Source: a virus
IMG/VR virus record: IMGVR_UViG_3300018415_000021
Location: 1 to 32,706 of that record
Length of the DNA: 32,706 bases
Strand: one strand, 5' to 3'
This document shows, in pieces, positions 4,510-28,536 of this stretch; within the stretch, counting starts at the first letter, position 1, and each line of letters opens with the position of its first letter. Both the position numbers and the translations under genes were made by a program. The notes beneath the pieces are model-generated. The model did not search any database and was not told the origin of the DNA. It worked only from the letters and a program-made list of their open reading frames with translations.

Positions 4510-5058
4510 TTAAAAGTTGTAGTCGTAAAACTTTCTTGGCTGAGTTGACAGAACATGTTTGCCCATGGCTGACTTCCAACCTTTTTTACCGAGGCGAACT
4601 TTCATCACCTGACCCTCTGGGCAAGATCTGTATTTGTAAGTCTGCTTGTTTTGGTTAACGCAATGACCTGAAAAGCCACCAGGAATGATATCAGGCTTAA
4701 AATCCTCATCCAACTCAGCAATCATCGCTCTGACTTCAATGGTCTTTGGCGAAACAACACGGATGATCTCAAATGGATAAACATCCGACCAACCATGCAT
4801 GTTGCAATAGCTGTAATGGATCGGCTCAACCTCATAAGCATATTTTTCATTGTAAGTTGCACCACAACGCCCAACAGGCAACCCATCAATGATGGCTTGG
4901 GCTTCTTCAGATGTTTCAAAAGTTTGAACAACATGGGAATCAGTAATGAGACGATCACCACGAAAATCGCTGAAGTAACGAGGCTCACAATCAGCCTTGC
5001 GTCCGTCTTCACGAGAGATGATAGTTTCAAAAACTTTGATAGCGTAACGAATAAACAT
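4510..5058 (-). CDS. Conserved phage protein of unknown function, 182 aa
   Basis: First gene of the leftward early operon, reading MFIRYAIKVFETIISREDGR at the N-terminus. The middle has HYSYCNMHGWSDVYPFEIIR followed by VVSPKTIEVR. The C-terminus has GGFSGHCVNQ and ends in basic residues and KFYDYNF. I recognise this as a type often seen in phage and plasmid genomes, but know of no function. Cys and His residues are scattered rather than grouped as a metal site. The start at 5058 is supported by GAGAAAGGA 17 nt upstream and by a promoter and leader hairpin immediately before. First place behind a strong promoter suggests early expression, probably in host takeover or modulation (inference). 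Confidence 0.8.
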   Translation of the reverse strand: MFIRYAIKVFETIISREDGRKADCEPRYFSDFRGDRLITDSHVVQTFETSEEAQAIIDGLPVGRCGATYNEKYAYEVEPIHYSYCNMHGWSDVYPFEIIRVVSPKTIEVRAMIAELDEDFKPDIIPGGFSGHCVNQNKQTYKYRSCPEGQVMKVRLGKKGWKSAMGKHVLSTQPRKFYDYNF

Positions 5059-5081
5059 GATTTTTTTCCTTTCTCAGTGTC

Positions 5082-5132
5082 GTAGGTCATTTCCTACTCT
5101 GTTATTATCGGTGATTTTGACAAAAAAGGCAA
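5082..5132 (-). promoter_or_regulatory. Leftward early promoter with leader hairpin
   Basis: On the minus strand TTGCCT (5132-5127), a 17-nt spacer and GATAAT (5109-5104) form a sigma70-type promoter. The transcript would begin near 5098 and fold at once into a GTAGG/CCTAC hairpin (5097-5082, 6-nt loop). GAGAAAGGA (5075-5067) and the ATG at 5058 follow. The same layout recurs before the genes at 11244 and 18922. Confidence 0.8.
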
Positions 5133-5163
5133 CAAATAAATTGATTTTTATTATCAGTCAAAA

Positions 5164-5173
5164 CAAGGACTTA
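5164..5173 (-). promoter_or_regulatory. TAAGTCYTTG box (variant)
   Basis: On the minus strand this reads TAAGTCCTTG, about 32 nt upstream of the leftward -35. It matches the boxes upstream of the promoters at 11168 and 18848 with one change (C for T). It is a candidate activator or repressor site. Confidence 0.5.
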
Positions 5174-6906: not shown

Positions 6907-7695
6907 ATGATGGCAAATGAAGTAGCAACTAAAAAAGAGTCCAATGTCGTAGCCTTTGATGAAAGCATCTTGCTTCAAGACGCAGGTGCAGGCCAAGAAG
7001 GCATGAACAAAGAGGACTTGATGATTCCTCGCCTAAGCATTTTGCAACAAATGTCACCACAAGTGAACAAGCGTGATGGTGCATATGTTCAAGGTGCAGA
7101 GCCAGGATTCATTCTTGACAATGTAGCCAACATAGCGACTGATGGCGAGAAAGGCATCACAGTGGTGCCAATCAGCTACAGACGTGCTCACATTGAGTGG
7201 AAGCCTGATAGAGGTGGCTTGGTCGCTGACCATGGACCTGACTCGGCTTGTCTTGAAAATTGCACTCGTGGAAGTCGTGGTGAATACCTGACAGACGAAG
7301 GCAACGAGATTGTCCCAACAGGTGAGTATTTTGTTTTCATAGTTGACGAAAACGGCTATACTCCCGCACTTCTTTCAATGGCAAAGTCACAATTAAAAAA
7401 GGCTCGCCAGTGGAACTCAATGATGAACAGGCTTATGGTTCAAGTCGGGGATCAAAAAATTAACCCTGCCATGTTCTGGACTGCCTATGATCTGACGACA
7501 GTTCCTGAAGAAAATGACCAAGGATCTTGGTTTGGTTGGTCGATCAAAATGAAGTATGACGCCAAGTCTGGTGGCATTTTGAAGAACCACCCCATGGGCA
7601 AAGATATTTATCTTGCTGCTCGTGAGTTCAAATCTCAGGTCGCATCAGGTGAAGTGAAAGTTTCTCCTGAGTCACAAGATGATGATGTAATGTAA
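6907..7695 (+). CDS. Phage protein with acidic tail; possible ssDNA-binding/recombination accessory
   Basis: 262 residues. A charged N-terminus is followed by MIPRLSILQQMSPQVNKRDG and a beta-rich core with KGITVVPISYRRAHIEWKP. Later comes LSMAKSQLKKARQWNSMMNR, and the C-terminus is short and acidic (SPESQDDDVM). This layout is common in phages just before primase or helicase genes. An acidic C-terminal tail is typical of single-strand DNA-binding proteins, which use it to contact replication partners. That is the basis for the tentative role; no conserved OB-fold signature can be confirmed by eye. Two ATGs lie in tandem at 6907 and 6910 behind AAGGAGAT. A GCAA-loop hairpin follows the stop. 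Confidence 0.6.
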   Translation: MMANEVATKKESNVVAFDESILLQDAGAGQEGMNKEDLMIPRLSILQQMSPQVNKRDGAYVQGAEPGFILDNVANIATDGEKGITVVPISYRRAHIEWKPDRGGLVADHGPDSACLENCTRGSRGEYLTDEGNEIVPTGEYFVFIVDENGYTPALLSMAKSQLKKARQWNSMMNRLMVQVGDQKINPAMFWTAYDLTTVPEENDQGSWFGWSIKMKYDAKSGGILKNHPMGKDIYLAAREFKSQVASGEVKVSPESQDDDVM

Positions 7696-11122: not shown

Positions 11123-11222
11123 TTCATAAGTCTTTGAAAATGCTGAGAAAGAAAATCACTTTCTTTGTTGCCTTTTATGACAAATTGGCGCATACTAACA
11201 GGACAGTCAGAAAAATTCTGAC
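11123..11222 (+). promoter_or_regulatory. Rightward early promoter with upstream box and leader hairpin
   Basis: TTCATAAGTCTTTGAA (11123-11138) contains the TAAGTCTTTG box. TTGCCT (11168-11173), a 17-nt spacer and CATACT (11191-11196) follow as -35 and -10. The leader folds into GTCAGAA/TTCTGAC (11206-11222, 3-nt loop), followed by TTTTT and then GAGAAAGGA at 11228-11236. The hairpin plus short U-run also looks like a weak attenuator. Confidence 0.82.
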
Positions 11223-11243
11223 TTTTTGAGAAAGGAAAAAATC

Positions 11244-11822
11244 ATGAAAGCGTTTGCTATTGACTACAAACAAAACACCATCCGTGCCTTCAGCTCTAAG
11301 CGTATCGCTCAGAAAATGGGCAATGGCTTGGTTGTTTTCAGTTCCGTTGACGAGTTGCTTGAAAATCGCAACACCACCAATCAAGGTATCGTCAGAGTTT
11401 ACAACAACAACACCAAAGTCGCAGTGAAGAGATTCGCTGACACTCGCACAGGTGCAGCCAGACTTCTGAAACTGGCTCAAGAGATTCCTGTGGAGCAAAC
11501 ACCTTTTGAACACCTGAATGGAGAAAAGAAAATGAATGAGGAAATCCTCAATCAAGACGACAACAAAGCAGATGTTGAAGTTCATGTCAAGTCAGCCAAT
11601 GCCACAAAGAAGCGTGGACGCAAGGCTGGGTTTGAAGGCAAGATGATTCGTGCTCTTGTTGAAAAGAACCCTCGTCGTCAGAACACTCATGGCTTTCATT
11701 CCATGGGCATCCTCATCAATGCTGGCGAGCCAGTGAGTTATGAGTCATACATAGCTCAAGGTGGTCGTCGTCAAGATCTGGCTTGGGATATTCAAAAAGG
11801 CTATGCGGGGATTTTAGACTGA
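11244..11822 (+). CDS. Conserved phage protein of unknown function, 192 aa
   Basis: The N-terminal domain begins MKAFAIDYKQNTIRAFSSKR and contains VRVYNNNTKVAVKRFADTRT. A linker is followed by a basic KKRGRKAGF (residues about 122-130). The C-terminal domain contains GFHSMGILINAGEPVSYESY and DLAWDIQKGYAGI. I recognise the C-terminal part as recurring in unrelated phages, where the basic GRKA segment suggests nucleic-acid contact; no function is established to my knowledge. The ATG at 11244 is chosen because GAGAAAGGA lies 16 nt before it; an in-frame TTG at 11226 would put the motif inside the gene. As first gene behind a promoter it is probably abundant early. Its stop overlaps the flavoprotein start (TGATG). 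Confidence 0.75.
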   Translation: MKAFAIDYKQNTIRAFSSKRIAQKMGNGLVVFSSVDELLENRNTTNQGIVRVYNNNTKVAVKRFADTRTGAARLLKLAQEIPVEQTPFEHLNGEKKMNEEILNQDDNKADVEVHVKSANATKKRGRKAGFEGKMIRALVEKNPRRQNTHGFHSMGILINAGEPVSYESYIAQGGRRQDLAWDIQKGYAGILD

Positions 11823-15850: not shown

Positions 15851-16011
15851 CAGCGAATGAAATTCAAAGCCACATAGAAAAGATGATCCGCAGGTGGGAA
15901 GAAACCTACACAATCGCTCCTGCGGATTACATTTCAAAACATCAAATGTCAAGCGACATATTATTTTTAGTCAAACAGGTGAAAAATGCTGAACATAAGA
16001 ACCAGGACTGA
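15847..16011 (+). CDS. Small helical protein, 54 aa
   Basis: Begins MTANEIQSHIEKMIRRWEET and continues as amphipathic helix (ISKHQMSSDILFLVKQVKNA). It lies between the membrane peptide (ATGA overlap) and the polymerase gene (26-bp overlap), so it is probably translated with the polymerase. A longer in-frame start at 15724 would run inside the exonuclease gene and is less likely. No family recognised; a small replisome partner is one idea, without direct evidence. Confidence 0.55.
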   Translation: MTANEIQSHIEKMIRRWEETYTIAPADYISKHQMSSDILFLVKQVKNAEHKNQD

Positions 16012-18799
16012 ATACAGTTTCCGTAAAGCCTATGGACCAATCAACAAGGTCATTGAGGCTATCAGCGGAGAGGCTGTTGGCATTTGTGATTCTGGGACTT
16101 GGGGTCATGTGAATTTTGAGCACGCCTGTAAAAAAGCAAACATCAAGCCTCTGCTTGGGGTTGAGATTCCGATCGTGGGAGACGCAACAGATCGCTCAAA
16201 ACAACCAGCCAATGACATGGCATTCATAGCCAAGAACAATGATGGCTTGACAGAGATATATCAGTTGGTGACCAAGAGCACCGACAAAGATCATTTTTAT
16301 TATCATCCTCGTCTCAGTTACGAGGACTTATTTGATATCAGCGACAATGTTATAATTTTAAGTGGAACGAACCCAGATTGGGGATTGTTGCCTTTGACCA
16401 AAAAAGACACTCTTTATATTGAGTTGAATCCAATGAGCACCCGCAAGGCTCTGGACTTCGCAGAGAAAAAAGGCTTTCAAGTCGTGGCCACCTCTGACAA
16501 CTTTTATCCCAAGACCACAGACAAAAAGGCATACGAGGTGTTGGTCGGTCGCAACCGCACAGACCGCACAGCCCAGATGCACATCCTCAATGAGTGGGAG
16601 TGGAGAGACGCAGTGCCATGGGCACCAGAGTCAGCCATTGAGAACACCTACAAGATTGCTGAGATGTGCGACGCAAGTTTGCCAACCGCACAGATGGTTT
16701 CATTTCACGCTGAAAAGACTTTGCGCCAAATGTGTGAGGAAGGTGCACCACCACGCAACATTGACCTCACTGACCCAGTTTATGAGGCTCGTCTTGACCG
16801 AGAGTTGAAGTTGATTGCAGAAAAAGAGTTTGAGGACTATTTTTATGTCATCGCTGACATGATTAACTACGCCAAAGAACACATGCTCGTTGGACCAGCC
16901 AGAGGCTCATCATCAGGCTCACTAGTTTGCTACCTCACAGGCATCACAGACATTGACCCGATTCAGCATGACTTGCTGTTTGAGAGATTCATTGACATCA
17001 CTCGTGAAGACTTGCCTGATATTGATATTGATTTTCAGGACGACCGCAGAGAGATGGTGTTTGAATATCTAAGGCAAAAGTATGGTGCGGAAAAGGTTGC
17101 CCACTTAGGAACAGTCTCTCGCTACAAAGCCAAAAGCACAATCGCAGAAGTTGCCAAAGAACTTGGCATTCCAGCATGGGAAGTGAACGACCTCAAAGGT
17201 GCAATCATTGAACGCAGTTCTGGTGACTCTCGTGCAGCGTTTTGCATTCTTGACACATTCAACGAACTTGATGTTGGCAGAAAGGTGCTTGAGAAATATC
17301 CTCAGATCAAAGTTGCCGCAGACATGGAGAATCATGCCCGACACAATGGCGTTCATGCCGCAGGTATCATTGTCACTGAATATCCCGTCAGCCAATATTG
17401 TTCGGTGTCAGGCCAAACAGGTGCAGCCCAGATTGACAAAAAGGACGCAGAGGATCTTAATCTGCTGAAGATTGATGCTTTGGGCTTGAGGACTTTATCG
17501 GTGCTTCAAGATGTTCTTGATCAGGTTGGGTGGACTCGTGATCAGTTGATAAAATATCCTCTTGAGGATGAAGAGGCATTCAAAGTCCTGAACGACGAAA
17601 AATATGCAGGGATCTTTCAGTTTGAAGGCTACGCATTGCAGTCTGTGACTCGTCAGATGAAAGTGCATAAGTTTGAAGACATCGCAGCAATCACTGCTTT
17701 GGCTCGTCCTGGACCACTCAACTCAGGAGGCACAACTCAGTTCATCAAACGCCACACAGGTGCGGCACCAGTTGAGTATCTTCACCCAATGACTGAGGCC
17801 ATCACAAAGGTGACCAATGGGGTCGTGGTGTATCAGGAACAAGTGATGACAATAGCCAGAGATGTGGGTAAGTTGTCATGGGAAGATGTATCAACCCTCC
17901 GCAAAGCAATGTCCAAGTCATACGGCAAAGAATACTTTGACACATTCTGGGAAAGATTCAAAGTTGGTGCAGCTGAGAATGACATCCCTGAAGACCAAGC
18001 CCAACGCATTTGGGACAACATTAACACAATGGGCTCATGGGCATTCAACCGCTCACATGCAATCGCATATGGCCTAGTCAGCTATTGGTGTTGCGTTTTG
18101 AAGAGCAAGTTTCCTCTGGAGTTTGCTGCTGCTTGCCTCCGCAATGTGAAAGATGACGAACAAGCTGTCAGGCTTTTGCGTGAGGTTGTTAAAGAAGGAC
18201 TCAACTACAAGTCATTTGACAAATTCAAATCAAAGGCCAACTGGTCGGTGCAAGATGGTGAGTTGATCGGTGGTTTGATCGGTATCAAAGGTATCGGTCC
18301 AAAAATGGCTGAGGACATCGTTAACAGACGTGAGATGGCCCAACCTCTGACTCCTCGCCAAGAATCGCTCCTGGACAACGGGAGCACACCCTACGACGAT
18401 ATTTTTGAGTGTGAGAGAAGGTTCGGACACATCAAGGCTGACCCAGCCGCACACAAGATTGTTTCACCCATCACTGACATCATTGATTTGGACGCTGACA
18501 ATCCAGGAATGTTTGTGTTCTTCGGGAAGTTGAAAGAGAAGAACTTGCGGGACATGAATGAGACAGTCAATCTAGCCAAGCGTGGCGGTCGCAGAGTTGA
18601 GAACAATAACCTATGGCTGAATGTGACTTTTGAGGATGACACTGGCCCAATCATTTCAACCATTGATCGTTTCAAATATTCACGCATGGGCAAGCCCATA
18701 GTTGAGGATGGCAGACTTGGTGATTGGTATCTCGTGAAAGGCCAAATCAAAGCAGGATTCAGAAAGATTTATGTAGAAAAAATTCGTAAACTTTCATAA
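15986..18799 (+). CDS. dnaE-like: C-family DNA polymerase (DNA polymerase III alpha/DnaE-like)
   Basis: 937 residues. The catalytic PDIDIDF at 344-350 gives Asp345, 347 and 349. FVYL-like palm and finger regions follow, with ALARPGPLNSGG, VVYQEQVMTIAR and SWAFNRSHAIAYGLVSYW. A helix-hairpin-helix, GLIGIKGIGPKMAEDIV, lies near residue 770, and a C-terminal OB-like segment starts with MFVFFGKL. Bacterial DnaE is about 1160 residues, so the N-terminal PHP domain is reduced. The usual HSxxS and TDHG metal ligands appear as RTEYSF and CDSGTWG, so PHP exonuclease activity is unlikely. The separate DEDDh exonuclease encoded just upstream could supply proofreading. The polymerase probably replicates the phage genome with the AEP primase. 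The start at 15986 has only GGTGAAAA upstream and lies inside the preceding gene. Confidence 0.93.
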   Translation: MLNIRTRTEYSFRKAYGPINKVIEAISGEAVGICDSGTWGHVNFEHACKKANIKPLLGVEIPIVGDATDRSKQPANDMAFIAKNNDGLTEIYQLVTKSTDKDHFYYHPRLSYEDLFDISDNVIILSGTNPDWGLLPLTKKDTLYIELNPMSTRKALDFAEKKGFQVVATSDNFYPKTTDKKAYEVLVGRNRTDRTAQMHILNEWEWRDAVPWAPESAIENTYKIAEMCDASLPTAQMVSFHAEKTLRQMCEEGAPPRNIDLTDPVYEARLDRELKLIAEKEFEDYFYVIADMINYAKEHMLVGPARGSSSGSLVCYLTGITDIDPIQHDLLFERFIDITREDLPDIDIDFQDDRREMVFEYLRQKYGAEKVAHLGTVSRYKAKSTIAEVAKELGIPAWEVNDLKGAIIERSSGDSRAAFCILDTFNELDVGRKVLEKYPQIKVAADMENHARHNGVHAAGIIVTEYPVSQYCSVSGQTGAAQIDKKDAEDLNLLKIDALGLRTLSVLQDVLDQVGWTRDQLIKYPLEDEEAFKVLNDEKYAGIFQFEGYALQSVTRQMKVHKFEDIAAITALARPGPLNSGGTTQFIKRHTGAAPVEYLHPMTEAITKVTNGVVVYQEQVMTIARDVGKLSWEDVSTLRKAMSKSYGKEYFDTFWERFKVGAAENDIPEDQAQRIWDNINTMGSWAFNRSHAIAYGLVSYWCCVLKSKFPLEFAAACLRNVKDDEQAVRLLREVVKEGLNYKSFDKFKSKANWSVQDGELIGGLIGIKGIGPKMAEDIVNRREMAQPLTPRQESLLDNGSTPYDDIFECERRFGHIKADPAAHKIVSPITDIIDLDADNPGMFVFFGKLKEKNLRDMNETVNLAKRGGRRVENNNLWLNVTFEDDTGPIISTIDRFKYSRMGKPIVEDGRLGDWYLVKGQIKAGFRKIYVEKIRKLS

Positions 18800-18900
18800 G
18801 TCTTTGAATTTGTTGAATATAAAAAACACTTTCTTGTTATTTTTTTGTTGCCTTTTTACCCAGAAAGAGCGATACTAACAGAGTAAGGGAAATTGTTCCC
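18793..18900 (+). promoter_or_regulatory. Rightward early promoter with upstream box and leader hairpin
   Basis: TTCATAAGTCTTTGAA (18793-18808) is identical to the 16-mer at 11123. It begins within the polymerase's last codons. TTGCCT (18848-18853), a 17-nt spacer and GATACT (18871-18876) follow. The leader folds as GGGAA/TTCCC (18887-18900, 4-nt loop), followed by ATTTT and GAGAAAGGA (18906-18914). The hairpin sequence differs from the other two but its place is the same. Confidence 0.82.
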
Positions 18901-18921
18901 ATTTTGAGAAAGGAAAATATC

Positions 18922-19434
18922 ATGGAAAAACATACTCCAAATCGCCGTGCAATCACTGACTGGATCGGCAACAGTCGCAAAACTTGGTGTGGTCCATATG
19001 CCATCGCAGTTGCTTGCGGAACTTCATACGAGCCAGCCTATCAGGTTGCCAAAAAAGTTCGTGGCAAGCGTCATGCCAAAGGCATCACCAACACCGACCT
19101 CATGAAGTCATGCAAGGCTCTTGGCGTCAAAGGTGAATGGTTCCCGATCTCAAGTGTTGGTGCTGGCAACAAGTCAAAGATGAAGTTGGAAAATTTCCTC
19201 AAACTTCTTCTTCCTGGCAAGGTGTATGTGATCCAGATCACAAAGCATTTCATCGTTGTTGACACTCGTGACTTCACGACCATTGACAACCAGAACCCTG
19301 ACGCATGGATCGCCATGGAAGCGACTCCACACAAGAACAAACTCGTCCACAACTACTTTGTGGTTGAGAACCCGAAGTTCGATCCCAAGAGCGAAGACGC
19401 TTGGTTGATTGAGCCACTTGCAGCCTCTGCTTAA
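18922..19434 (+). CDS. Putative papain-like/C39-like cysteine peptidase
   Basis: 170 residues. RKTWCGPYAIAVACG at about 20-33 resembles the active-site cysteine (Cys23) at the start of a helix in C39 and papain-like peptidases. KHFIVVDTRDFTTIDNQ at 108-124 has the expected strand with His109 followed by an Asp/Asn (Asp122 or Asn123). MKSCKALGVKGEWFP fits the helix-strand between them. There is no signal peptide or transporter domain, so it would act in the cytoplasm. As first gene behind its own promoter it may be expressed strongly and early, perhaps to cut a host or phage protein or reverse a protein modification (inference). The ATG at 18922 follows GAGAAAGGA by 16 nt. The fold call rests on motif spacing only. 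Confidence 0.6.
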   Translation: MEKHTPNRRAITDWIGNSRKTWCGPYAIAVACGTSYEPAYQVAKKVRGKRHAKGITNTDLMKSCKALGVKGEWFPISSVGAGNKSKMKLENFLKLLLPGKVYVIQITKHFIVVDTRDFTTIDNQNPDAWIAMEATPHKNKLVHNYFVVENPKFDPKSEDAWLIEPLAASA

Positions 19435-19452: not shown

Positions 19453-20232
19453 ATGAACTTCAAATGGATGACAGATTACGATCAGGAAATGTTCCGCAGC
19501 CTCAAAGGTCTTGTTAACAATGGTGGCTTTTTCAAGTCATCAGGTCAGGCTGCATTTTTTGAAAAGCGTGTTCGCACTGGCAGCCATCATGTTGGACCAT
19601 GCACTGCTTGGGACAATTCTGTTGATGTTGCTGAAGGCCAGTATGCAATCATTTGCGAAGGCCTGGTTGGGTCTGGTGAAGTCAACTATGTTGACAACTG
19701 GGGCAGTCGTGCTCGTCGTAAGGCATGGATCTTCGTGATTGATGAGGTTGGTGTTGTGGAGATGTTCATTGGTCGCTGCAAACACTACAGCGATGGCTCT
19801 GCCCCGAATGGTGAGAAAACTGTTCGCGAGTTCGTTCGCACTGACGAGGGTCGTGCGCATGACCTTGCTAAGTCTTTCGCCGACGAGCGTGCCGCAAAAG
19901 CCAAAGCCATTGGTGACAAGCGTGCAGCCTCCACTCATGTTGGTGAGGTTGGTGAGCGTATTGAGGTTGAAGGCTTTGCTCGGCTCATCACTTCTTTTGA
20001 TAATGATTTTGGTCGGTCATACATGTATATGATTGAGGACGCAGATGGCAATGCCTACAAGTTTATCGGAACAGGAATCCACACTTCTGAGCAGAGTGCT
20101 GATCGTCGCATCGCTTTCAAAATCAAAGCGAAGTTTACTGTGAAGGCTCACGACGAATACAACGGCCAGAAGCAGACTGTGGTCAACCGCCCAAAGATCA
20201 TCGAGCGGGAAAGCATGGGGGCAGCAGCATGA
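19453..20232 (+). CDS. Hypothetical protein with possible OB-like C-terminal domain, 259 aa
   Basis: The N-terminal 110 residues (start MNFKWMTDYDQEMFRSLKGL) are beta-rich, with aromatic and charged stretches such as KAWIFVIDEVGVVEMFIG. The middle is a helical region rich in Ala, Lys and Arg (SFADERAAKAKAIGDKRAAS). The C-terminal 90 residues look like a five-strand barrel, with GEVGERIEVEGFARL, YMYMIEDADGNAYKFIGTG and AFKIKAKFTVKAHDEY. That pattern suggests an OB or similar nucleic-acid-binding fold, but no family is recognised. The ATG at 19453 follows GAGAAAGGA by 15 nt and the stop overlaps the next start (ATGA). It may work with the SNF2-like helicase downstream. Confidence 0.65.
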   Translation: MNFKWMTDYDQEMFRSLKGLVNNGGFFKSSGQAAFFEKRVRTGSHHVGPCTAWDNSVDVAEGQYAIICEGLVGSGEVNYVDNWGSRARRKAWIFVIDEVGVVEMFIGRCKHYSDGSAPNGEKTVREFVRTDEGRAHDLAKSFADERAAKAKAIGDKRAASTHVGEVGERIEVEGFARLITSFDNDFGRSYMYMIEDADGNAYKFIGTGIHTSEQSADRRIAFKIKAKFTVKAHDEYNGQKQTVVNRPKIIERESMGAAA

Positions 20233-20447
20233 AGAAATATTCAGGCAGTGGCTCACCTTTTGTGCGTGGCGGGATGGATTCTTACTATCGTCGCCCACGC
20301 AACCCTCATTATTACATTGATGGGACTAACGAGTTCGGACACTATTGTCAAATCAGGATTGAAGAGTTGACGGAAGAAGAAACCGAGCAGTATTTTGCTG
20401 GTTACGAAGAAAACGAAGAAAACGGAGATAAGAAAGATTGGGGATGA
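20229..20447 (+). CDS. Small acidic-tailed hypothetical protein, 72 aa
   Basis: Begins MKKYSGSGSPFVRGGMDSYY with a Tyr/Arg/Pro-rich N-terminal part, and ends in a strongly acidic helix (EELTEEETEQYFAGYEENEE). It has ATGA overlaps with the genes on both sides, so it is translated with the 259-aa protein and the SNF2-like helicase. A protein with opposite charges at its two ends could be an adaptor or DNA mimic, but this is speculation; no family recognised. Confidence 0.6.
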   Translation: MKKYSGSGSPFVRGGMDSYYRRPRNPHYYIDGTNEFGHYCQIRIEELTEEETEQYFAGYEENEENGDKKDWG

Positions 20448-22138
20448 TTATTGAAAAGGCTCACGGCAAATATTGCCTAGCCAAAACGAAACTTGATGGC
20501 AACTCAATCCAAAAACTCTCTTCCCTCCCAGGATTCAAAAAGTGGGTGGGGAGGGATTTGCTTTTTGCACCGACTGGTGCCAACCTAGAGCACATTCATA
20601 AATTTTGGCCAGAGGCTGAATGGACTGAAGAGGCCAGTCCTATCCTTGATAATTATATCCAGACTTTGCGTGAGGCTGAAAAGAACAGAGAAGAAAAAGA
20701 CAAGCCAGCTGAAGATCTCGGCGACTTCATGTTCAAGACTCGTCCTTTTGGTCATCAGCGTAAAGCCTTTTATCTTTCCCGAGACAAAGACTCGTTTGCA
20801 CTTTTGATGGAGCAAGGCACAGGCAAAACAAAAGTCGTGATTGACAATGCGGCATATCTTTACGGCAAAGGCAAGATCACAGCCCTAGTCGTGATTGCCC
20901 CGAATGGTGTTCACCGAAACTGGTTGAGCAAAGAGATTCCCGATCACATGCCTGATTGGTGTCCGACCAGAGCAGTTTACTACCACGCAAGCATGCGCAA
21001 AAAAGAAATGGATGCTTTTGAGGATGTGTTGGCTGAAACAGAGACTCTCAAAGTCTTCAGCTTCAATGTTGAGGCTTTTGTCAGTGACAAAGCAACAAGG
21101 CTGATGAACAGAGTCCTGCTCAGCAATGATGTATTGTTAGTTGTTGACGAGAGTTCCCGCATCAAGCGTCCAGGAGCCAAACGAACAAAGATCATCACTC
21201 GTTTTTCAAAGATGGCTAAATATCGTCGCATAATGACAGGCACTCCAGTGACCAAAGGACCAGAAGATGTTTACAGCCAGTTCAAGTTTCTTGACCCTCA
21301 CATTTTAGGCTATGACAGTTTTTATTCTTTCCGAGCCAGATATTGTGTCATGGGTGGCTATGAGAACAAGCAGATAGTTTCCTATCAGAATGTTGATGAG
21401 TTGACAAAGAACATTGAAGGCCACTCATTCAGAGTTTTGAAAAAAGACTGCCTAGACTTGCCTGACAAAATATATCAGCGTCACCCTGTTGACTTGTCTC
21501 CGAAGCAACGCAAGTTGTATGATCAACTGCGTAAAGAGTTCATAGCCGAACTTGAAGGCGAACACATTGATGCACCAGAGACCATCACTCGGCTTTTGAG
21601 GCTTCAGCAGATTGTTTGTGGGTGGTTCCCGACTGAAGAAGAAGTCAAGCCCATTGACGAGAAAAATCCCAGAATGCAGGCTCTTTTGGATATTCTTAGC
21701 GACATTGACACCAAAGTAATCATCTGGGCACGATTTAAGGCTGATTTAAGAGCCATAGAGCGTGCTTTAGGTGACTTGGCTGTTGCTTACCACGGGGATG
21801 TGTCAAACGACCAACGAGCGATCGCCGTAGAGCGATTTCAGAATGACCCGAAAGTTCGCTACTTCATAGGTCAACCGCAATCAGGAGGAATTGGTCTGAC
21901 ATTGACTGCCGCAGAGTGTGCAATCTACTATTCAAATAGTTTTGACCTTGAGACTCGTCTTCAATCTGAAGACAGGTGCCACCGCATCGGAACAAAGAAC
22001 AATGTCACTTATATCGATATTGAGGCTCCAAAAACCATTGACAGCAAAATCATTAAAGCACTGCAAAGCAAAAAGAGCCTCGCAGATGTCGTCACCAAAG
22101 ATCCCATCTCGCTTTTCTTGACCGATGACGAAGAGTGA
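20444..22138 (+). CDS. SNF2-like superfamily 2 helicase/translocase
   Basis: 564 residues. Motif I is MEQGTGKTK (122-130) and Ia is VVIAPNGVHRNW. Motif II is DESS at 235-238 in place of the usual DEAH. Motif III is MTGTPVTKGPEDVY, followed by IIWARFKADLRAIERAL. Motif V is GGIGLTLTAAECAIYY, and motif VI is QSEDRCHRIGT. These define the Snf2 group, which moves along double-stranded DNA and remodels protein-DNA complexes. A 120-residue N-terminal domain precedes the motor. Phages use such proteins for replication restart or recombination; the exact task here is unknown. The ATG at 20444 overlaps the previous stop (ATGA); a TTG two codons upstream is unlikely. The gene lies near the end of the replication arm with a nuclease downstream. 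Confidence 0.9.
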   Translation: MIIEKAHGKYCLAKTKLDGNSIQKLSSLPGFKKWVGRDLLFAPTGANLEHIHKFWPEAEWTEEASPILDNYIQTLREAEKNREEKDKPAEDLGDFMFKTRPFGHQRKAFYLSRDKDSFALLMEQGTGKTKVVIDNAAYLYGKGKITALVVIAPNGVHRNWLSKEIPDHMPDWCPTRAVYYHASMRKKEMDAFEDVLAETETLKVFSFNVEAFVSDKATRLMNRVLLSNDVLLVVDESSRIKRPGAKRTKIITRFSKMAKYRRIMTGTPVTKGPEDVYSQFKFLDPHILGYDSFYSFRARYCVMGGYENKQIVSYQNVDELTKNIEGHSFRVLKKDCLDLPDKIYQRHPVDLSPKQRKLYDQLRKEFIAELEGEHIDAPETITRLLRLQQIVCGWFPTEEEVKPIDEKNPRMQALLDILSDIDTKVIIWARFKADLRAIERALGDLAVAYHGDVSNDQRAIAVERFQNDPKVRYFIGQPQSGGIGLTLTAAECAIYYSNSFDLETRLQSEDRCHRIGTKNNVTYIDIEAPKTIDSKIIKALQSKKSLADVVTKDPISLFLTDDEE

Positions 22139-22256
22139 GTTGAGACAAAGGCTGATTGAGATTCGGGATAGGGCAACAGATCCCGAAATAATAAGGCACA
22201 TAGAGCAAATGATAAAAATTATAACAAAACAACTGGAGAATGGTCGCTATGAGTGA
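22125..22256 (+). CDS. Very small helical protein, 43 aa
   Basis: A frame starting MTKSELRQRLIEIRDRATDP and continuing as a charged amphipathic helix ending ENGRYE. It begins 14 bp inside the helicase gene and ends 8 bp inside the nuclease gene, filling a gap of 110 bp that is otherwise empty. The helical heptad pattern and the overlaps at both ends support a real gene, although no good ribosome site is visible. It may be a partner of the helicase or nuclease. Confidence 0.5.
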   Translation: MTKSELRQRLIEIRDRATDPEIIRHIEQMIKIITKQLENGRYE

Positions 22257-22662
22257 AAAGAATTTTTGGGTATTGCTGAGGACTTCCCTCAAAGGCATGA
22301 AAATGTATCGTGTTGAAAACAGAGTTATGAAAGGCATGCCCGATGTTCATTACATCAAAGACGGCAAGTCTGGCTGGATTGAATTGAAGTATATGAAAGA
22401 CTGGCCACGCAGTCGCATGAGCACAGGCCTTAAATTGAATCAATCGCTTTGGCTAAAGGAATACGACGAACACAAAGGCCAATGCTGGGTGTTGTTGAGG
22501 GTAGGTCGGGACTTTGTTGGTCTCATTCATGGCCGAGATGCCAAGAGGCTTTTTGAGCGTCCATCCCGTCAAGACTTTTTCAATCTTCTTTCATACAAAA
22601 AACTTGGCAACATGAAGAAAGAAGACTGGGAAGAACTTCAATCTATCTTGACTGCTTCATGA
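22249..22662 (+). CDS. VRR-Nuc-like PD-(D/E)xK nuclease
   Basis: 137 residues. The core is KGMPDVHYI, a short turn, then GWIELKYMK. This gives the PD-(D/E)xK active site with Asp32, Glu45 and Lys47, and an upstream Glu23 that may complete the metal site. VRR-Nuc domains are stand-alone phage or Fan1-type nucleases that cut branched DNA, often found beside SNF2-like helicases, as here. The role would be resolving replication or recombination intermediates. I prefer the ATG at 22249, with GGAG 10 nt upstream, to the in-frame ATG at 22240. The stop lies 20 bp inside the convergent virion gene, and no terminator is visible between the two arms. Confidence 0.75.
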   Translation: MSEKNFWVLLRTSLKGMKMYRVENRVMKGMPDVHYIKDGKSGWIELKYMKDWPRSRMSTGLKLNQSLWLKEYDEHKGQCWVLLRVGRDFVGLIHGRDAKRLFERPSRQDFFNLLSYKKLGNMKKEDWEELQSILTAS

Positions 22663-27042: not shown

Positions 27043-28536
27043 TTATCTCCCCTGACTCATATAATATGCGGAGGCCAATGCCCCCAGACCACCAAGAGTC
27101 TGGCCGTAGATTGACGGAGTCTGAACATATTGCTGACCTTGCGAGAGCGAATATTGAGTCGTTTCATATGGGACACCTTTCAAAGCACCCATTGCAAAAT
27201 TCAACATCTGGAATGGATATTCTCTTTGCTCAACATAATCTGAATATGCGAGGTCAAGAGCCATCTGATCAAGTTTCCTGCGAGCCTCACCAGCCGAAAG
27301 CATGCCTGATGCTGCTTGTTCCTGAAGTCCTTGAACTAAAGGTGCATAAGACTGCAGTTGTTCTGCTTGACGGAGGCGAGAGGCTTCTTGAGTTTCGTAT
27401 GCGGCACGTTGTGCTGCTTCTGCTCCGAACCTAGCCTCACGATCTTGTTGGTATCTTTGACGGAGAACATCTTCAGCTCCAAAGCGTGCAGCCCGATCTC
27501 TTTCTCTTTGCGCCATACGAGTTTCGTATGCGGAACGACCAGCTTGTTCTGCACCGAATCTTGCTTGTCTATCACGCTCGGCTTGTTCCATACGAGCAGC
27601 TCTGTCTGCCATTGACATCTCTGCACCGAATGCTCTGTCTTGAGCGAATCTGCCATAGAGGTCTGATTCAGCTGCGAACCTTGCGGCACGATCTCTTTCT
27701 GCTTGTGCGGAAAGTGCTTGCTCAGCTCCAAAGCGTGCTGCTCTGTCTGCTTCAAATTGTTGTGCTGCGAACCCTAAGCCTTGTTGTGCTGCTTGAGAGC
27801 GGATGTCACCTGCTCTTGCTGCACCTTCAGAGGCAGTCAGAATGTCTGAGATTGCTGCTCTTGAGCCACCGAATGCACCTGCTCTTGCTGCTTGGGCTCT
27901 GTTTGCTGTTTGTTGTGCTGCTATTTGACGCTCAACTTCACGAACTGCTGGGTCTGCTGCACCTTGATAAATATCTAAAAATGGTTGTGCTGATTCAAGC
28001 GTAAATCCTGGACCAGTTAATTGTTCGCGAGTCGCACCTTGATAATCACCAACAAGTTCGCCTCTGGTCAAAGCACCTTGACGACCCATTTGGCCAGTGT
28101 AACCTGTTATGTCTGGGGCTTTTCCTATCAATTGACTAGAGGTCATGCCTCTGTATCCTGGAGCTGATCCGCCAGTGAGTTGACCACGAGTCGCACCGCC
28201 ATATCCTGGACCCATCAACTGAGACCTAGTGGCCGCATCATAACCACGACCAAGCCTTGTTGCTGCTTGATATGCTGTGTCAACATAAGGCTGATAACTT
28301 TCAGCCCCACTAGTCAAAAGATCAAAAGCCTGTCTTTCTTCGGGTGTTAATTTTTTCCCGTCATAACTAGCGATCCGTGCACCTTGATATCCTGGGTAAG
28401 GACTTTTGGCTAGCTCTCCTGCTTGCTCAAAAAGTATTTTGCCACCTGCTGAAACCCACTCAGGGATGTCTGTCCCTGTAAGGACATTTTCATAGGTAGG
28501 TAAATTTTCAGTGCCTGTTGTGCAAAAGCCACCCAT
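27043..28536 (-). CDS. Repeat-rich candidate internal virion protein, 497 aa
   Basis: The N-terminus (MGGFCTTGTENLPTYENVLT) is followed by two kinds of tandem repeat. Residues about 101-175 hold five copies of a GATRxQLxG type unit. Residues about 264-373 hold at least six copies of DRAARFGAE type, spaced irregularly (about 18-40 residues) in a very charged Ala/Arg/Glu helix. The C-terminal 90 residues are mixed and end ALASAYYMSQGR. Such Ala/Arg/Gln-rich helical proteins are frequent in marine podovirus-like genomes, next to tail-hub and ejection proteins, and may line the ejection channel (inference). GGAGG precedes the start, which follows directly after the acetyltransferase-like gene. 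The repeats also explain long open frames in other phases. Confidence 0.6.
   Translation of the reverse strand: MGGFCTTGTENLPTYENVLTGTDIPEWVSAGGKILFEQAGELAKSPYPGYQGARIASYDGKKLTPEERQAFDLLTSGAESYQPYVDTAYQAATRLGRGYDAATRSQLMGPGYGGATRGQLTGGSAPGYRGMTSSQLIGKAPDITGYTGQMGRQGALTRGELVGDYQGATREQLTGPGFTLESAQPFLDIYQGAADPAVREVERQIAAQQTANRAQAARAGAFGGSRAAISDILTASEGAARAGDIRSQAAQQGLGFAAQQFEADRAARFGAEQALSAQAERDRAARFAAESDLYGRFAQDRAFGAEMSMADRAARMEQAERDRQARFGAEQAGRSAYETRMAQRERDRAARFGAEDVLRQRYQQDREARFGAEAAQRAAYETQEASRLRQAEQLQSYAPLVQGLQEQAASGMLSAGEARRKLDQMALDLAYSDYVEQREYPFQMLNFAMGALKGVPYETTQYSLSQGQQYVQTPSIYGQTLGGLGALASAYYMSQGR
27382..27756 (-). repeat. Degenerate tandem repeat encoding DRAARFGAE units
   Basis: This stretch of the 497-aa gene encodes repeated DRAARFGAE, DRQARFGAE and DREARFGAE units, with variants such as DRAARMEQAE, irregularly spaced. 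The corresponding DNA reads GCWCCGAA-like words again and again on the plus strand. It creates open frames on both strands, which I treat as shadows. Confidence 0.75.
28009..28242 (-). repeat. Degenerate tandem repeat encoding GATRxQLxG units
   Basis: Five units (AATRSQLMG, GATRGQLTG, GMTSSQLIG, ALTRGELVG, GATREQLTG) separated by Gly/Tyr/Pro-rich linkers of 4-16 residues. Irregular spacing and sequence drift suggest old duplications kept by selection rather than recent slippage. Confidence 0.7.

Follow-up and report, generated by a model that had tools for sequence, protein, structure and literature searches.

What does a small cysteine-peptidase-like protein do among the replication genes of a phage? 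The window analyzed here, a virus record of 32,706 bases, combines a rightward replication block (primase, helicases, ThyX, polynucleotide-kinase-like genes, exonuclease and DNA polymerase) with leftward structural genes. A megablast search with 20 kb of the window against a phage collection returned no close isolate, and the closest isolate polymerases, ~43% identical to the DNA polymerase of the window, come from Vibrio and Cronobacter phages. The gene in question (18922-19434, + strand) stands between the DNA polymerase gene directly upstream (15986-18799, +; phrog_405) and a phrog_2319 gene (19453-20232, +). It opens a replication operon that also contains a helicase (20438-22138, +; phrog_62), which occupies the same slot in relatives; a phrog_2165 gene, listed as a DNA helicase, lies at 22240-22662 (+). 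Elsewhere in the window, a 262-aa protein (6907-7695, +) matches Pfam Pam3_Gp34 (E 1.6e-57), a family that takes its name from a Pam3 phage protein, and imperfect short direct repeats (27390-27753) lie within a leftward gene of 497 aa (27043-28536) for which no PHROG match was found.

Predicted fold and active site of the enzyme

The open reading frame begins with ATG and encodes a free-standing protein of 170 aa. Translation confirmed the residues on which a first-pass annotation had built its C39/papain-like reading: Cys23 within TWCGPYAIA, His109 within KHFIVVD, and Asp122 and Asn123 within TIDNQ. The structure prediction and fold search which that annotation proposed point the same way. 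The AlphaFold2 model (28-sequence alignment; pLDDT 86.4, pTM 0.81) has a papain-like fold in which residue 23 opens helix 1 and residue 109 opens a strand, the canonical papain-like places, and its top PDB matches in Foldseek are the C39 domains of AMS/PCAT and ComA. With VIA-align, ComA (rmsd 3.2, 121 aligned) and PCAT1 (rmsd 3.1, 121 aligned) both reached Z 10.1, followed by Josephin (Z 9.6, rmsd 4.2, 135 aligned) and staphopain (Z 9.4, rmsd 3.2, 123 aligned). In a weak profile alignment of the family to ComA (E 0.13), Cys23 and His109 fall on a Cys and a His of ComA; this alignment and the positions in the fold suggest that the two residues are adjacent. The predicted model and the conservation described below thus provide the core-helix Cys, the strand His, the third polar residue and the fold of the papain-like superfamily.

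We scanned IMG/VR with the enzyme protein and then with its alignment, which yielded 16 and then 80 loci, and separately with the neighboring DNA polymerase, for which the best 80 of 303 loci were kept. The first-pass annotation had staked its reading on the key residues persisting in relatives, and they do: Cys23 is kept in 80/80 distinct related ORFs, and His109 and Asp122 in all 76 that extend far enough. Conservation of the Cys in the 80-locus search is biased, since TWCGPYA served as a search pattern; the polymerase-anchored set removes this bias, and among its 33 distinct proteins (new loci L113-L182) the Cys is present in 33/33 and the His and Asp in the 30/30 that extend. For the third residue the annotation had named Asp122/Asn123, of which the first stands and the second falls away: Asp122 is invariant, whereas Asn123 is kept in 72 of the 76 long-enough ORFs (the remainder having Ser), and we therefore take Asp122 as the third residue. 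Gapped alignments (MAFFT, hhalign) place this residue differently, so that we relied on the ungapped His+11 spacing common to the relative L085 and the wider phrog_3754 family. The enzyme is under purifying selection (omega 0.09-0.17 in four comparisons, versus 0.05-0.085 for the polymerase), and no export signal is visible by eye at its N terminus. We regard it as a papain-fold protein with an intact predicted Cys23-His109-Asp122 site, which is probably catalytic.

Family membership and likeness to known enzymes

A free-standing peptidase had seemed unusual in a phage, an impression that the database comparisons overturn. The enzyme matches the phrog_3754 profile (E 1.6e-6), as do 27/28 relatives; the match spans the Cys-to-His core, and the Cys-His-Asp is shared. 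BFVD also contains numerous small uncharacterised phage proteins with the fold of the enzyme, some of them in named phages. Given the spread of phrog_3754 and these BFVD neighbors, free-standing papain-fold proteins are common in phages. Like the enzyme, phrog_3754, with ASD50550.1 of Acidovorax phage ACP17 as a named member, keeps Cys-His-Asp in free-standing proteins of mostly 120-200 aa. The two differ in motifs: the window clade has TWCGPY and TIDNQ, the wider family ETNDCTV and GKxxD, and the window clade usually has two residues more between His and Asp.

A further IMG/VR scan collected 80 wider phrog_3754 relatives. In 44/44 wider-family proteins His and Asp are invariant, with a spacing of 11 in the reference. 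A regular-expression search for the His-Asp motif hit 58/65; by eye four of the seven misses have the motif and three are cut or false ORFs. Aligned with hhalign, the window clade matches the 44 wider members with a probability of 98.6 (E 8.9e-16). The model of the wider family shows the same kind of fold (pLDDT 86.8) with weaker PDB matches, namely Josephin first (Z 8.9), then the pseudomurein endoisopeptidase PeiR (8.4) and C39 domains (8.2), and no Foldseek match under E 0.001.

Named relatives of the enzyme sit among small hypothetical genes, and tblastn against the phage collection with four queries (P0001, L085, L079 and L104) returned no isolate close to the window clade. In bacteria, the 274 genomes from the class to which G006 belongs gave a single phrog_3754 match, which is the phage-like contig itself; a second, weak match, within a frame of 707 aa in G003 and G004, was ascribed to chance. 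The relative L104 (8001-8423) lies on a phage-like contig, with terminase-like genes by eye, that was assigned to the MAG of an uncultured Glaciecola, which hints weakly at the host of that one phage only.

Searches of Pfam and NCBIfam gave no usable family for the enzyme, which also has no match to PF03412 (Peptidase_C39) up to E 10. Its relatives do match PF03412, in 15/16 cases at E up to 1 and in 17/28 at E up to 0.1 (best E 3.1e-5). Among PADLOC anti-phage defence profiles, no family matched the enzyme, and the 28 relatives gave three stray CRISPR matches.

How close, then, is the enzyme to characterized peptidases? It resembles C39 (PF03412; the peptidase domains of ComA and PCAT1) in its fold and, by the weak profile match, in the positions of Cys and His; the third catalytic residue of C39 is likewise an Asp. 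However, C39 is the N-terminal domain of an ABC exporter, whereas the enzyme is not fused to an ABC transporter. The C39 family also carries an oxyanion-hole Gln about six residues before the Cys, which the enzyme lacks: Gln is absent from this place in 80/80 related ORFs, position 17 (Cys-6) being N in 34, K in 32, R in 4, T in 4, I in 3, V in 2 and S in 1. Lacking both the transporter fusion and this Gln, the enzyme is no canonical C39 peptidase. Its overall fold is also shared with staphopain and other papain-like proteases, at 6% identity for 1pxv and with no sequence match; the staphopain-type proteases matched here are secreted, larger enzymes. By description alone, the enzyme can also be likened to gp34 of Pelagiphage HTVC027P (Pdase_C33_assoc), which has a different Pfam assignment and which the available part of its report presents as a predicted marine-phage cysteine peptidase, highly expressed early to middle (PMC12753301). 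The enzyme thus belongs to a known phage family of uncharacterised function, for which the literature searched, mostly without subscription papers, yielded no functional study; what we infer about its function follows from its expression signals, its evolution and its fold.

A dispersed promoter-leader module

The enzyme gene had been described as standing behind its own strong promoter, with a leader hairpin and a consensus ribosome site. The ribosome-binding site is as described (GAGAAAGGA, 18906-18914, +), and this sequence occurs 11 times in the window against 0.53 expected. Ownership of the promoter does not hold: it belongs to a module that recurs across the phage, with three copies in the window, and the operon behind it includes the helicase. 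The module, ~120-128 nt long and dispersed over the window, consists of a -35-like TTGCCT, ~17 nt, GATACT or a variant, a hairpin and GAGAAAGGA. Its copies lie before the enzyme and its operon (18797-18924, +), before rightward genes of which the first, of phrog_4730, starts with ATG at 11244 (11127-11246, +), and before leftward genes from 5058 (5056-5173, -). Local alignment of the copy at the enzyme with the leftward copy scored 50.5, versus a maximum of 21.5 in 500 shuffles. The gene behind the leftward copy (4510-5058, -) encodes a 182-aa phrog_19789 protein and is probably another early gene. Related modules are found in phage relatives, some of which have a second copy after the enzyme gene.

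As to its strength, the promoter (TTGCCT-17 nt-GATACT, 18848-18876, +) is sigma70-like, early-type and conserved ahead of the gene in relatives, where the -10 is in some cases TATAAT. By hand count it agrees with 8/12 sigma70 consensus positions, which falls below the cut-off of the promoter scan and explains why the scan did not list it. The hairpin (GGGAA-ATTG-TTCCC, 18887-18900, +) can pair, but taken alone the window copy does not exceed chance (z -0.86; z -2.0 on a 45-nt cut, an analysis that misplaced the -10 for at least L010 and L181), and we rejected it as a strong feature in itself. It is recurrence only that speaks for it: stem sequences differ among the three copies with pairing preserved in each, and pairing with a different sequence is also seen in many, not all, leaders of phage relatives. 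A stem with p < 0.05 was found in 9 of the 26 leaders of at least 18 nt (8 shorter ones of 34 in all being left out), the leaders being related to one another and the shuffle mononucleotide. Because a host-type promoter fronts replication genes, the enzyme is likely to be expressed early.

Divergence, exchange and function

The enzyme sits beside the polymerase in 41 of the 46 polymerase loci, from the best 80 of 303, that extend 1.3 kb or more downstream; the loci with no adjoining enzyme are L132, whose contig carries one elsewhere, L159, L170, L171 and L174. The slot order polymerase-enzyme-helicase is kept in most loci examined. Identity to the window was compared at 18 distinct loci, drawn from 24 that carry all three genes and whose polymerase is < 90% identical; the enzyme has a median of 52%, the polymerase of 81% and the helicase of 76%. 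This speed alone is no proof of an arms race, since other genes of the window diverge about equally fast (median identity 56% for PNK1, 59% for the gene at 22240-22662 and 40% for the phrog_2319 gene). The last of these (19453-20232, +) is among the fastest of the operon, with 39-43% identity in four loci and omega 0.19-0.24 in three comparisons. Discordant histories of neighboring genes point to allele exchange: relative to the window, L120 has a polymerase of 85% and an enzyme of 31% identity, and L003 a polymerase of 81% and an enzyme of 90%. These sequence comparisons suggest that enzyme alleles have been exchanged between phages. In eight loci from other phages (L079, L081, L083, L085, L092, L099, L102 and L104) none of 21 other queried window genes matched, and no constant neighbor that might be a substrate or partner was found across 90 loci, the largest recurring cluster covering 10/90.

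Taken together, the invariant site, early-type expression, fast divergence, exchange and the lack of a constant partner fit an effector acting on a host protein. We tentatively favor, at slightly below even confidence, an early host-directed papain-fold enzyme at the head of its operon that cuts a host protein in trans. It would be transcribed early from a module that serves the phage in at least three places, and the cytoplasmic stand-alone enzyme would then reach its host target in trans. Cleavage would be the most likely mode of action, and it might disarm a defence or redirect the cell. Work on jumbo phages considers patchy phage peptidases to be probably aimed at host proteins, in the part of the text available (PMC7824862). 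Near-constant retention beside the polymerase could instead reflect a role in replication.

Would the enzyme have to cut at all? Since the oxyanion residue is missing, deamidation or acyl transfer is a serious rival: a papain-fold transferase, deamidase or transglutaminase would act through a Cys thioester and modify either a host protein or a small molecule. According to the available part of PMC10318531, deamidase and transglutaminase clusters almost always lack the oxyanion element whose canonical Gln is absent from all 80 ORFs here. The fold comparison also matched phytochelatin synthase (Z 8.4, rmsd 3.5, 127 aligned), and the acyltransferase profile BtrH_N matches 3/28 relatives (best E 8e-4). 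The peptidases C39 and staphopain score better as folds, however, and Peptidase_C39 matches more of the same relatives than BtrH_N does. The C39-type fold matches favor proteolysis, and we consider a protease more likely than a transferase, which is not probable but deserves weight. The first-pass annotation had offered three roles: inactivating a host defence protein, processing a phage polyprotein, or reversing a protein modifier. Of these, the host-directed role fits best, while modifier reversal and ordinary proteolysis cannot be told apart by the predicted fold. An isopeptidase that strips ubiquitin-like proteins attached by bacterial defence systems to phage or host proteins would agree with the fold matches to Josephin, UfSP and a herpes tegument deubiquitinase (Z 9.6 to 7.7) and with Josephin ranking first for the wider family; those Z values are tied with or below those of C39 and staphopain, and the literature searched contained no such phage enzyme, which leaves this reading improbable.

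Slightly more improbable is a protease that processes a phage protein or peptide, be it a polyprotein, a scaffold or a double-Gly leader. C39 domains cut double-Gly leaders (PMC10318531, available part), and the window clade retains the gene next to the polymerase almost throughout, yet it lies among replication genes and not head genes, occurs also in phages with no shared neighbor, and has no candidate substrate among the neighbors at the 90 loci. Polyprotein processing and cell-wall hydrolysis are both unsupported, given the placement among replication genes and the lack of an export signal by eye. A pseudo-enzyme with a pure binding role, comparable to HlyB's C39-like domain, would share the fold (3zua, Z 9.1), but it is very hard to reconcile with Cys, His and Asp invariant in 76/76 complete relatives and with the His and Asp of the wider family, and we give it hardly any credence.

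In conclusion, an early enzyme that cuts a host protein is our preferred reading, and an invariant Cys-His-Asp on a papain-like fold gives a widespread family of 'unknown function' a testable active site. More speculatively, and rather doubtfully, phrog_3754 and its relatives may be a phage-wide class of early, stand-alone effectors with a papain fold that pass between unrelated phages and act on a broadly conserved protein of the host or of a defence system, by cleavage or deconjugation; if so, they would represent a general cysteine-protease weapon of tailed phages. If host proteins are indeed targeted, proteomics with a C23A control would offer a route to the bacterial target, and the early cysteine proteases of phages would be comparable to those of animal and plant viruses.
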